Origin: Clostridiales bacterium
GTDB taxonomy: Bacteria; Bacillota; Clostridia; Christensenellales; UBA1750
Assembly (NCBI GenBank): GCA_015056005.1
Contig: SVHB01000027.1
Location: 1 to 33,283 of the forward strand
Direction of reading: 5' to 3'
Length of the DNA stretch: 33,283 bases
This document shows positions 21,859 to 23,709 of the stretch, piece after piece (position 1 is the first letter of the stretch; each line of letters starts with the position of its first letter). The position numbers and the translations under genes were made by a program. A model generated the notes under the pieces. It made no database searches. It was not told where the DNA came from and worked only from the letters and a program-made list of their open reading frames with translations.

Positions 21859-21893
21859 GTGTATCGCTCCTCTCGGAAAAGTATTCACTTTAG

Positions 21894-21922
21894 ATTATAC
21901 TATATAAATTTCACTTTATCAA
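21894..21922 (-). promoter_or_regulatory. ireB operon promoter
   Basis: Minus strand: -35 TTGATA (21917-21922), spacer 17, perfect -10 TATAAT (21894-21899), about 35 bases before the TTG start. It makes ireB-ruvX-DUF1292 independent of the upstream permease gene. Confidence 0.75.
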
Positions 21923-21934
21923 ATGTTTTTACCC

Positions 21935-22936
21935 TTATTGATACAATTTATTATCCAAAATCGCCAAATATGCGCCCTTGATGAGAGTGAATGCCGGCAC
22001 GATGAGTATCATTCCCCACACTGAGAAAAGTTTTGCCCCTATAAGCAGCAGGATTATGACAACGCAGGGGTGAAAGCCTGCAGTATCGGAAAGAATTTTA
22101 GGCGCAATTATCAGCGTTTCGGCCTGCTGGACAAGCAGTGCTGCTATAAGCGCCGATATCATTTTGTATATCCCAAGCGGCGCTGAGACGATGGCAATCG
22201 GGATCATTCCTATCACCGAACCGAAATAGGGAATAAGGTTCAGTATTCCCATCATTATCCCAAGCAGGATATATGCGTCTATACCCACTATCGCCATTGC
22301 AAGCGCGGTCAGGCTTCCCGTAAAAAGCGCTATCAGCAGCTGACCTTTCACATAGCCGGAAAAGAACTCAGCCGATTTTTTGGCAAAGCGCATCACATCA
22401 AACCTGATCTTTGAAGGTATGAACCTTAAAAGCACATCAAAAAGCTTTTTCCGGTCTCTAAGAAGATAAAACGCGATAACAGGCGATACCACATACTGTC
22501 CCGCGTTTGCAGCACCGCTTATGAGCTTTCCCAAGGTATCCTCCCCTCCCCTTGGCAAAAGCTGCAAAAAGAATCCTTTTATATCAACATCCATTCCAAG
22601 AGGAGAAAGGAATTGATCCGCTTTTTGCGATATTCTTTCCAACGCGCTTTCTATATCGCGAAAAATATCAGCAAGCGATCCCAGCTGATTAGATATCGTG
22701 GGAACAATAAAAGCTATAATAAGCGCCGGCAATACTATCGACAGCAAAATACAGATAATCCCCGCAAGCGTCGGATGCATCCTTTTTTCAAGAAAGTTCA
22801 TTGGACCTATCAGCAAAAACGCGATAAGGCTTGCAGCAAAGATCACCGCGATCACGCTCATTATAGTCCTTACAAGCAGTACCGCAAGTACGATCAATAA
22901 AATTACGGCAGCCCATTTGAATATCTTTTTTACCAT
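21935..22936 (-). CDS. AI-2E-family transporter (membrane permease)
   Basis: A 333-residue polytopic protein of the AI-2E/UPF0118 family. Three N-terminal helices (about 7-88) are followed by a soluble amphipathic stretch and four or more C-terminal helices with GILNLIPYFGSVIGMIPIAIVSAP, the family signature, near 230-253. Members export varied solutes, so the name does not imply autoinducer-2 transport. The start ATG has no good SD; a hairpin (22951-22974) lies just upstream. In many Firmicutes the gene precedes alaS, which is missing here. Confidence 0.9.
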   Translation of the reverse strand: MVKKIFKWAAVILLIVLAVLLVRTIMSVIAVIFAASLIAFLLIGPMNFLEKRMHPTLAGIICILLSIVLPALIIAFIVPTISNQLGSLADIFRDIESALERISQKADQFLSPLGMDVDIKGFFLQLLPRGGEDTLGKLISGAANAGQYVVSPVIAFYLLRDRKKLFDVLLRFIPSKIRFDVMRFAKKSAEFFSGYVKGQLLIALFTGSLTALAMAIVGIDAYILLGIMMGILNLIPYFGSVIGMIPIAIVSAPLGIYKMISALIAALLVQQAETLIIAPKILSDTAGFHPCVVIILLLIGAKLFSVWGMILIVPAFTLIKGAYLAILDNKLYQ

Positions 22937-22981: not shown

Positions 22982-23155
22982 TTAGTAGAACATTCTTTCA
23001 CCCATGTGCTTCACAGCGCGCATTGCGTGCATGCCCTTTTTCATCATGGAACGCTTTACGCTTGGATAGCACATGCAAACGCCTGCCTCAGTCAGCATAG
23101 CGCCGGCGATGGCTCCGACCACGAATGCAGCCGCCGTCTTTTCAAAACTGCCCAT
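22982..23155 (-). CDS. 57-residue protein with a small-residue-rich membrane segment
   Basis: A short gene between the PRC-barrel and AI-2E-family genes. The protein opens MGSFEKTAAAFVVGAIAGAMLTEAGVC, with a Gly/Ala-rich hydrophobic stretch at about 8-22 like a glycine zipper. It continues with a basic, Met- and His-rich tail (VKRSMMKKGMHAMRAVKHMGERMF). ATG follows GGAGGG at good spacing. It resembles YtxH-type small envelope proteins in layout only. Function unknown; the tight context suggests it works with its neighbours. Confidence 0.75.
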   Translation of the reverse strand: MGSFEKTAAAFVVGAIAGAMLTEAGVCMCYPSVKRSMMKKGMHAMRAVKHMGERMFY

Positions 23156-23200
23156 CTCGTTTCCCTCCGATCAAAAAACGATATAAATAAGGGCGCAGTA

Positions 23201-23656
23201 CTATCCGCGCCCCGTTTGCATGGCGATAATACCTTCGCCGCTGCACGAAAACTCGCTTATTAAAATGCGCCCCTCAAAGAAATCATCGATATAGCCAATG
23301 GATACTTCCAGGCAGGCCACCAAACCCGACTTTTCATCAAGATAGGCGTTTGTATACCAGCCGATGATACGTCCGTTTGAGCCGTAGACCCCGGCGCCGA
23401 TATAAAGCCGATCCTTTGGACACATACCGCGCTTTTTCAGAGCATCTTTCTTAAAAAGAACACATACGTCTCCGATAACCGAGACTGAAGAAAAATCAAG
23501 AAATCTTTCTCCCGACAAAAAGCGTTTCGGCCTTATCATAAGACCCAAAAGCTTTTTTCCGTCGCCTGATATCACAGCGCCGCCTACGCGGCCTATGACT
23601 CTGCCGCTGTTTTCGTCAACGCAGCTCAATGCCTCGATCTCGTCCAGTCGTTTCAT
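23201..23656 (-). CDS. PRC-barrel domain protein
   Basis: A 151-residue soluble protein made of two PRC-barrel-like beta domains (about 10-70 and 78-140), seen in the repeated pattern SGRVIGRVGGAVISGDGKK and NGRIIGWYTNAYLDEKSG. PRC barrels bind RNA or proteins in RimM and photosynthetic reaction centres; in sporulating Firmicutes (YlmC/YmxH type) they are sporulation-associated. ATG at 23656 follows GGGAG at 8 bases; an in-frame TTG one codon earlier is less likely. The SD lies inside a long terminator hairpin. Confidence 0.8.
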   Translation of the reverse strand: MKRLDEIEALSCVDENSGRVIGRVGGAVISGDGKKLLGLMIRPKRFLSGERFLDFSSVSVIGDVCVLFKKDALKKRGMCPKDRLYIGAGVYGSNGRIIGWYTNAYLDEKSGLVACLEVSIGYIDDFFEGRILISEFSCSGEGIIAMQTGRG

Positions 23657-23709
23657 CAAAAATGCTCCCGGGCAAAGCGTGTTTTCGCTATTATATTGCC
23701 CGGGAGCAT
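23657..23709 (-). terminator. Terminator hairpin whose 3' arm contains the PRC-gene SD
   Basis: A perfect 14-bp inverted repeat (arms 23696-23709 and 23662-23675; core CTCCCGGGCAA / TTGCCCGGGAG) with a 20-nt loop. In the minus-strand RNA the loop holds TATAAT followed by a small inner stem AGCG-AAAACA-CGCT. TTTTTG follows the 3' arm and then the PRC-barrel ATG. GGAG, the only SD candidate, is part of the 3' arm. Confidence 0.8.

Follow-up and report, generated by a model that had tools for sequence, protein, structure and literature searches.

The PRC-barrel gene and its leader

The window (the whole 33,283-nucleotide stretch of DNA that was analyzed) carries on its minus strand a gene for a PRC-barrel protein, separated by 108 bp from a co-directional methyltransferase gene (Table 1). 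The ATG at 23656 is the correct start of the PRC gene: the homologues of relatives align from residue 1. No close homologues were found in GTDB genomes, the nearest relatives sharing about 34%; the nearest named relative is UBA1428, which is labelled Christensenella sp. In relatives, the gene lies mostly in the same AI-2E/IreB/RuvX neighborhood. The alaS gene is usually found between the AI-2E transporter and IreB genes; at 21888–22936 of the window, it is absent from an otherwise canonical PRC/AI-2E/IreB/RuvX/DUF1292 block. On the minus strand at 23190–23213, a terminator-like hairpin overlaps the stop codon of PRC; closely following it is a short ORF (22982–23155) that has its own, separate Shine-Dalgarno sequence (SD).

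Table 1. Positions of the genes and leader elements discussed in the text (window coordinates)
Feature	Start	End	Strand	Remarks
PRC-barrel gene	23201	23656	−	151 aa; PF05239; YrrD-like position upstream of AI-2E/IreB/RuvX
Methyltransferase gene	23765	24946	−	after icd; co-directional, upstream of PRC; presumed source of read-through
5′ arm, ATGCTCCCGGGCAA	23696	23709	−	unique in the genome except for its partner arm
Loop, TATAATAGCGAAAACACGCT	23676	23695	−	4-bp inner stem AGCG/CGCT
TATAAT	23690	23695	−	−10-like box between the arms, 5′ of the inner stem
3′ arm, TTGCCCGGGAGCAT	23662	23675	−	
SD, GGGAG	23665	23669	−	wholly paired in the predicted hairpin
T-run	23658	23662	−	abuts the PRC start codon; first T paired; tail of the intrinsic-terminator type
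Second element, yabP	7053	7091	−	17-bp hairpin with CATAATATC (7079–7071) and the SD of yabP (start 7051; TIGR02892)

Read along the minus strand from 23709 to 23657, the PRC leader comprises the 5′ arm, the loop, the 3′ arm and TTTTG, in that order, before the start codon. The T-run numbers five if the paired last T of the arm is included; the unpaired TTTT and the G occupy 23661–23657. An earlier note on this DNA had claimed a perfect 14-bp inverted repeat and a T-run abutting the PRC ATG, and both the sequence and its folding confirm this: all 14 bp of the stem (9 of them G-C) are matched, and the hairpin folds at −38.8 kcal/mol, compared with −17.1 ± 3.0 kcal/mol for dinucleotide shuffles (z = −7.3, 0/200). 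The piece from −75 to +3 gives a z of −7.6. The claim that this terminator-like hairpin covers the only SD candidate is also supported by the fold prediction. GGGAG, 8 nt from the ATG, is the sole candidate, and the predicted energy needed to open it is 23.9 kcal/mol in a read-through RNA vs. 5.5 kcal/mol if transcription is assumed to start after the TATAAT.

A GC-rich hairpin directly before a U-tract, downstream of a co-directional gene, is what is expected of an intrinsic (Rho-independent) terminator. The PRC element differs from the usual form in its long loop, in the location of the SD within its 3′ arm and in the start codon placed right after the U-run. Neither arm has another copy in the 2.5-Mb assembly. 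The idea of a dispersed repeat was thus rejected, as the arms are unique in the genome.

Promoters in the genome and the TATAAT box in the loop

The sigma-A promoter of this genome is very sharply defined (TTGACA-17-TGTGnTATAAT): a model trained on the genome returned scores of at least 8 for 333 of 566 genes, compared with 15 of 566 after shuffling. In the genome sample, the −10 boxes of these promoters mostly lie 30–60 nt before the start codon. They are unusually strong and uniform, with an extended TGTGn −10 element, a 17-bp spacer in 294 of 352 cases and short 5′ leaders; this uniformity makes them well suited to the prediction of start sites in this lineage.

The TATAAT of the PRC loop is found at the usual −10 distance, where this hexamer peaks before starts in the genome sample. 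The earlier note had proposed that it is the −10 box of a local promoter. As an ordinary, sigma-A promoter, this proposal fails: the box scores −1.7 in the genome-trained model, as against at least 8 for 333 of 566 genes, and it has neither a usable −35 nor a TGTG element. We therefore rejected a normal sigma-A promoter in the loop. Read as AATATAATA, the box matches CATANNNTA, which we take to be the consensus, at eight of nine positions. PRC was absent among the best sigma-E scores listed, the lowest of which was 4.4.

Recurrence of SD-covering hairpins and their link to sporulation genes

The earlier note had also suggested that hairpins burying an SD are a recurrent design in this genome, and named a genome-wide scan as the test that could refute it. 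We scanned 1.29 Mb (51%) of the genome, in stretches from one draft assembly with home-made gene calls, and tested the pairing of the SD region with the preceding 46 nt for every gene preceded by a gap of 35 nt or more. The scan returned an excess: SD-covering pairing at p ≤ 0.002 was found in 10 of 662 genes, compared with 1.3 expected from the shuffle control, a count that shifts slightly with the shuffling (9 or 10). SD-covering inverted repeats scoring at least 16 numbered five, one of them a probable gene-call artefact, vs. 0.20 in a swap control over the same 1.29 Mb. SD-burying hairpins thus recur above chance in this genome. Elsewhere, we found no excess at p ≤ 0.002: one of 161 genes in G001, which was the only relative sampled genome-wide, and one of 414 in other Clostridia.

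Hairpins are strongest before PRC, a SleB-like gene, a rubrerythrin gene, bofA, yabP, the gene at L190:5058 and spoIID; two probable gene-call artefacts (L143:8617, a contig-end ORF, and L152:47) were discounted. The PRC hairpin is the strongest of its class in this genome. In most of these genes a T-run also precedes the ATG, and all of them, like every strong case in the sample, lie downstream of a co-directional gene from which read-through could come. Two members of this strongest class, PRC and yabP, are in the window, and the yabP hairpin (5-nt loop, z = −6.6) is most likely the “second SD-burying hairpin” to which the earlier note alluded.

Like PRC, the other six genes are without a sigma-A promoter. 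Duplexes of −20 kcal/mol or stronger occur in nine of 274 genes without such a promoter vs. one of 359 with it (0.6 expected in total). Likewise, among terminators between co-directional genes, eight of the 54 at genes without a sigma-A promoter, two of these eight being probable gene-call artefacts, and none of the 61 at genes with one end 11 nt or less before the next start (p = 0.0018). A general association with sigma-A promoters was rejected: SD pairing at p ≤ 0.005 occurs in four of 359 sigma-A genes, which is about chance. At ftsK, mutM and another gene, the SD does pair around a sigma-A −10 box, though less strongly.

A link to sporulation, which the earlier note did not contain, emerged in part after the hairpins had already been found. 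The genome encodes sigma-E, SpoIVA, a sigma-K-like factor and further sigma genes, and the hairpin-first scan had matched yabP, bofA and the SleB-like gene (by family models) as well as spoIID. We then looked up spoIVA, spoIID, sigK, yqfC, spoIIIAA, sigE and sigG by family, with structure disregarded. At spoIVA (TGCCTCTCATAG...GGGAGGCATTTTTT-ATG) and at spoIID, which the scan had also found, SD-covering pairing was reached in 0/300 shuffles; sigK has a weaker form (pairing p = 0.01), and its whole fold is not significant (z = −0.7). SD pairing was not found at yqfC (p = 0.20) or spoIIIAA (p = 0.06 or 0.74, depending on the start codon). Of the five genes presumed to act in the mother cell and examined in this unselected way, three thus carry the element. 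The sigE and sigG genes of this genome have no such hairpin, and PRC itself matched none of the NCBIfam sporulation models. SD pairing weaker than in the main class (p = 0.01, GCCTC...GAGGT) was observed at a further sporulation gene, lonB (L177:6248, TIGR02902).

Where might promoters lie in these leaders? In relatives, the −10 boxes of spoIVA, yabP, bofA and sigK are mostly of the CATATnnAT type and lie some 30–45 nt ahead of the start. At like distances in this genome, CATAGTATT (spoIVA), CATAATGTA and CATAGATTT (bofA and sigK) and CATAATATC (yabP) lie between or within the arms. The notion of a −10 box between the arms thus gains partial support from these four genes, even as its sigma-A version falls at PRC. 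The clearest candidate box is that of spoIVA, TTCTAAA-N14-CATAGTATT, which may be compared with TTCTA-N14-CATA in several relatives; the sigma-E-type scores of the bofA, sigK and yabP boxes are modest (2.4–6.8), and neither spoIID nor the SleB-like gene has a convincing −10 in its loop. Given this placement, the genes' own mRNAs should lack the 5′ arm. If starts just after the −10 boxes are assumed, the predicted cost of opening the SD in the genes of this genome is 0.5–6 kcal/mol in the presumed own RNAs, vs. 8–24 kcal/mol in read-through RNAs. The sigma-E score transferred from relatives was not distinct from shuffles in this genome, rendering it unusable for listing a regulon.

In relatives' copies of the same sporulation genes, SD pairing is mostly absent. 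Among 34 spoIVA leaders read, most are without the layout; outside this genome, it appears in G006 (p = 0.003), a member of another genus, and in G063, a member of another family (TGTATCCTC-GCATATAAT...GGGAGGATACATTTTTTT-ATG, 0/300). The spoIVA hairpin in another genus and another family of the order is either convergent or ancestral. By eye, ordinary terminator-like hairpins lie upstream of the promoter at yabP in three relatives (G003, G008 and G010) and at bofA in one (G002). Therefore, the need for insulation may be common to the relatives, with the layout alone differing.

A proposed silencing mechanism and its alternatives

We propose that a polymerase arriving from the icd-methyltransferase genes would transcribe both arms, and that the hairpin and U-tract would end most of these incoming transcripts by intrinsic termination. 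In those that escape, the hairpin would pair the only SD, leaving PRC untranslated. Expression of PRC would then depend wholly on a promoter between the arms, giving an mRNA that starts in the loop, lacks the 5′ arm and has a free SD. Elements of this class would serve mainly genes without a sigma-A promoter, preferentially mother-cell sporulation genes, and the nested promoter would be of the sigma-E type. We infer that transcription terminates here, that translation is blocked, where the RNAs start and, most of all, that PRC has an alternative-sigma promoter. That the PRC hairpin is a terminator and SD silencer of read-through is probable; that a functional promoter lies between its arms is plausible, if not quite favored. 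The combined reading, a read-through silencer with a nested promoter that belongs to a small genome class preferring sporulation genes, is the one toward which we lean, by a modest degree.

This logic has published precedents, which were likewise absent from the earlier note. In the leader of sigG in Bacillus subtilis, a hairpin of 20 bp or more has been proposed to keep transcripts that read through from spoIIG untranslated; it cannot form in RNA from sigG's own promoter (PMC5942855). The parallel would be close: an endospore-former, a hairpin only in read-through RNA and a hidden ribosome-binding site. Unlike that single gene, several genes are involved here, mostly mother-cell ones, and the hairpin runs into a U-tract ahead of the ATG. 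According to passages in two reports (PMC3014915, PMC2988022), the SD of T4 e, soc, 49, I-TevI and segB and of Aeh1 mobE is sequestered in upstream transcripts, while the late promoter is so placed that its transcripts do without the structure's 5′ portion and are translatable; for gene e, the effect is 100-fold. The SD of the genes studied here is similarly predicted to be paired in upstream RNA, whereas those promoters are phage late promoters, and the same passages describe no terminator function. The PRC element would best be read as a read-through silencer that works by the principle described for these genes of B. subtilis (sigG) and T4 (e, soc, 49 and I-TevI). It departs from the precedents in that the hairpin is joined to a U-tract and that the layout serves several sporulation genes. 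IS10/Tn10 has a fold-back protection from external promoters, in which read-through RNA hides the start region of the transposase; that is a mobile element, and the PRC locus is not.

Sigma factors are usually held responsible for keeping spore genes silent in growing cells. We tentatively suggest that, in this lineage, a set of mother-cell sporulation promoters is nested in bifunctional terminator/SD hairpins, which would silence a whole regulon instead of a single gene; PRC would be a new member of that regulon. If this is true, growth-phase read-through from housekeeping genes would be both terminated and untranslatable, and sigma-E transcripts would remain free. Confirmation would reveal a cheap, sequence-encoded second lock common to several genes, with terminator, promoter and ribosome-binding site merged in about 60 bp; it would also offer a sequence signature by which sporulation genes could be found in Clostridia that are uncultured, as well as a compact way to build insulated promoters.

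The most serious alternative, which we consider unlikely, is that a plain terminator of the icd-methyltransferase genes abuts the PRC start by chance, that the TATAAT is likewise fortuitous, and that PRC is transcribed by read-through or from a weak upstream promoter. The stem and U-tract fit such a terminator, terminators are common in gaps of this kind (121 in the sample), the TATAAT has no −35, and in the relatives of genus g4 a hairpin stands between PRC and the gene before it, at some distance upstream of the SD. Chance abutment does not account for the finding that start-abutting terminators occur only where a sigma-A promoter is lacking (8/54 vs. 0/61), for their mostly unusually long loops (11–38 nt, several with −10-like boxes) or for the occurrence of several at sporulation genes. 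Moreover, with the hairpin over its only SD and no promoter downstream, PRC would have little expression.

It is improbable that the hairpin is a conditional attenuator, in which PRC's own transcript, begun upstream of 23709, would contain the whole hairpin, to be opened by an RNA-binding protein, a ligand or a trans RNA. A weak promoter-like sequence (CTGAAA-17-AATAAT, 23743–23715) would start RNA near the 5′ arm, but the genome-trained model gives it only −8.1. No Rfam family reached its gathering score in the window, no alternative fold was noticed, and the arm sequences vary between genes, which argues against a common ligand or protein site. A palindrome acting at the DNA level (a transcription factor operator, or a mobile or repetitive element) would suit a perfect inverted repeat surrounding a −10-like box, but is very improbable, as the arms recur nowhere else and vary gene by gene, and G-U pairs in the stems of spoIVA and yabP preserve symmetry in RNA but not in DNA.

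The low TATAAT score, the missing sporulation match of PRC and the sporulation genes that have no such element weigh against the silencer reading, as do the PRC homologues in relatives, which are without an SD-burying hairpin and without a recognizable sigma-E box. In genus g4 (L053, L048, L050 and L054), PRC follows iscU, as seen in L053, with similar upstream ends in the others. The iscU-PRC gap contains a GCCCC...GGGGC hairpin, the tail of which (CAATTTAT..GTGAA) resembles CAATATAATAGCGAAA in the window; a common origin of this tail and the window's promoter-like box is possible.
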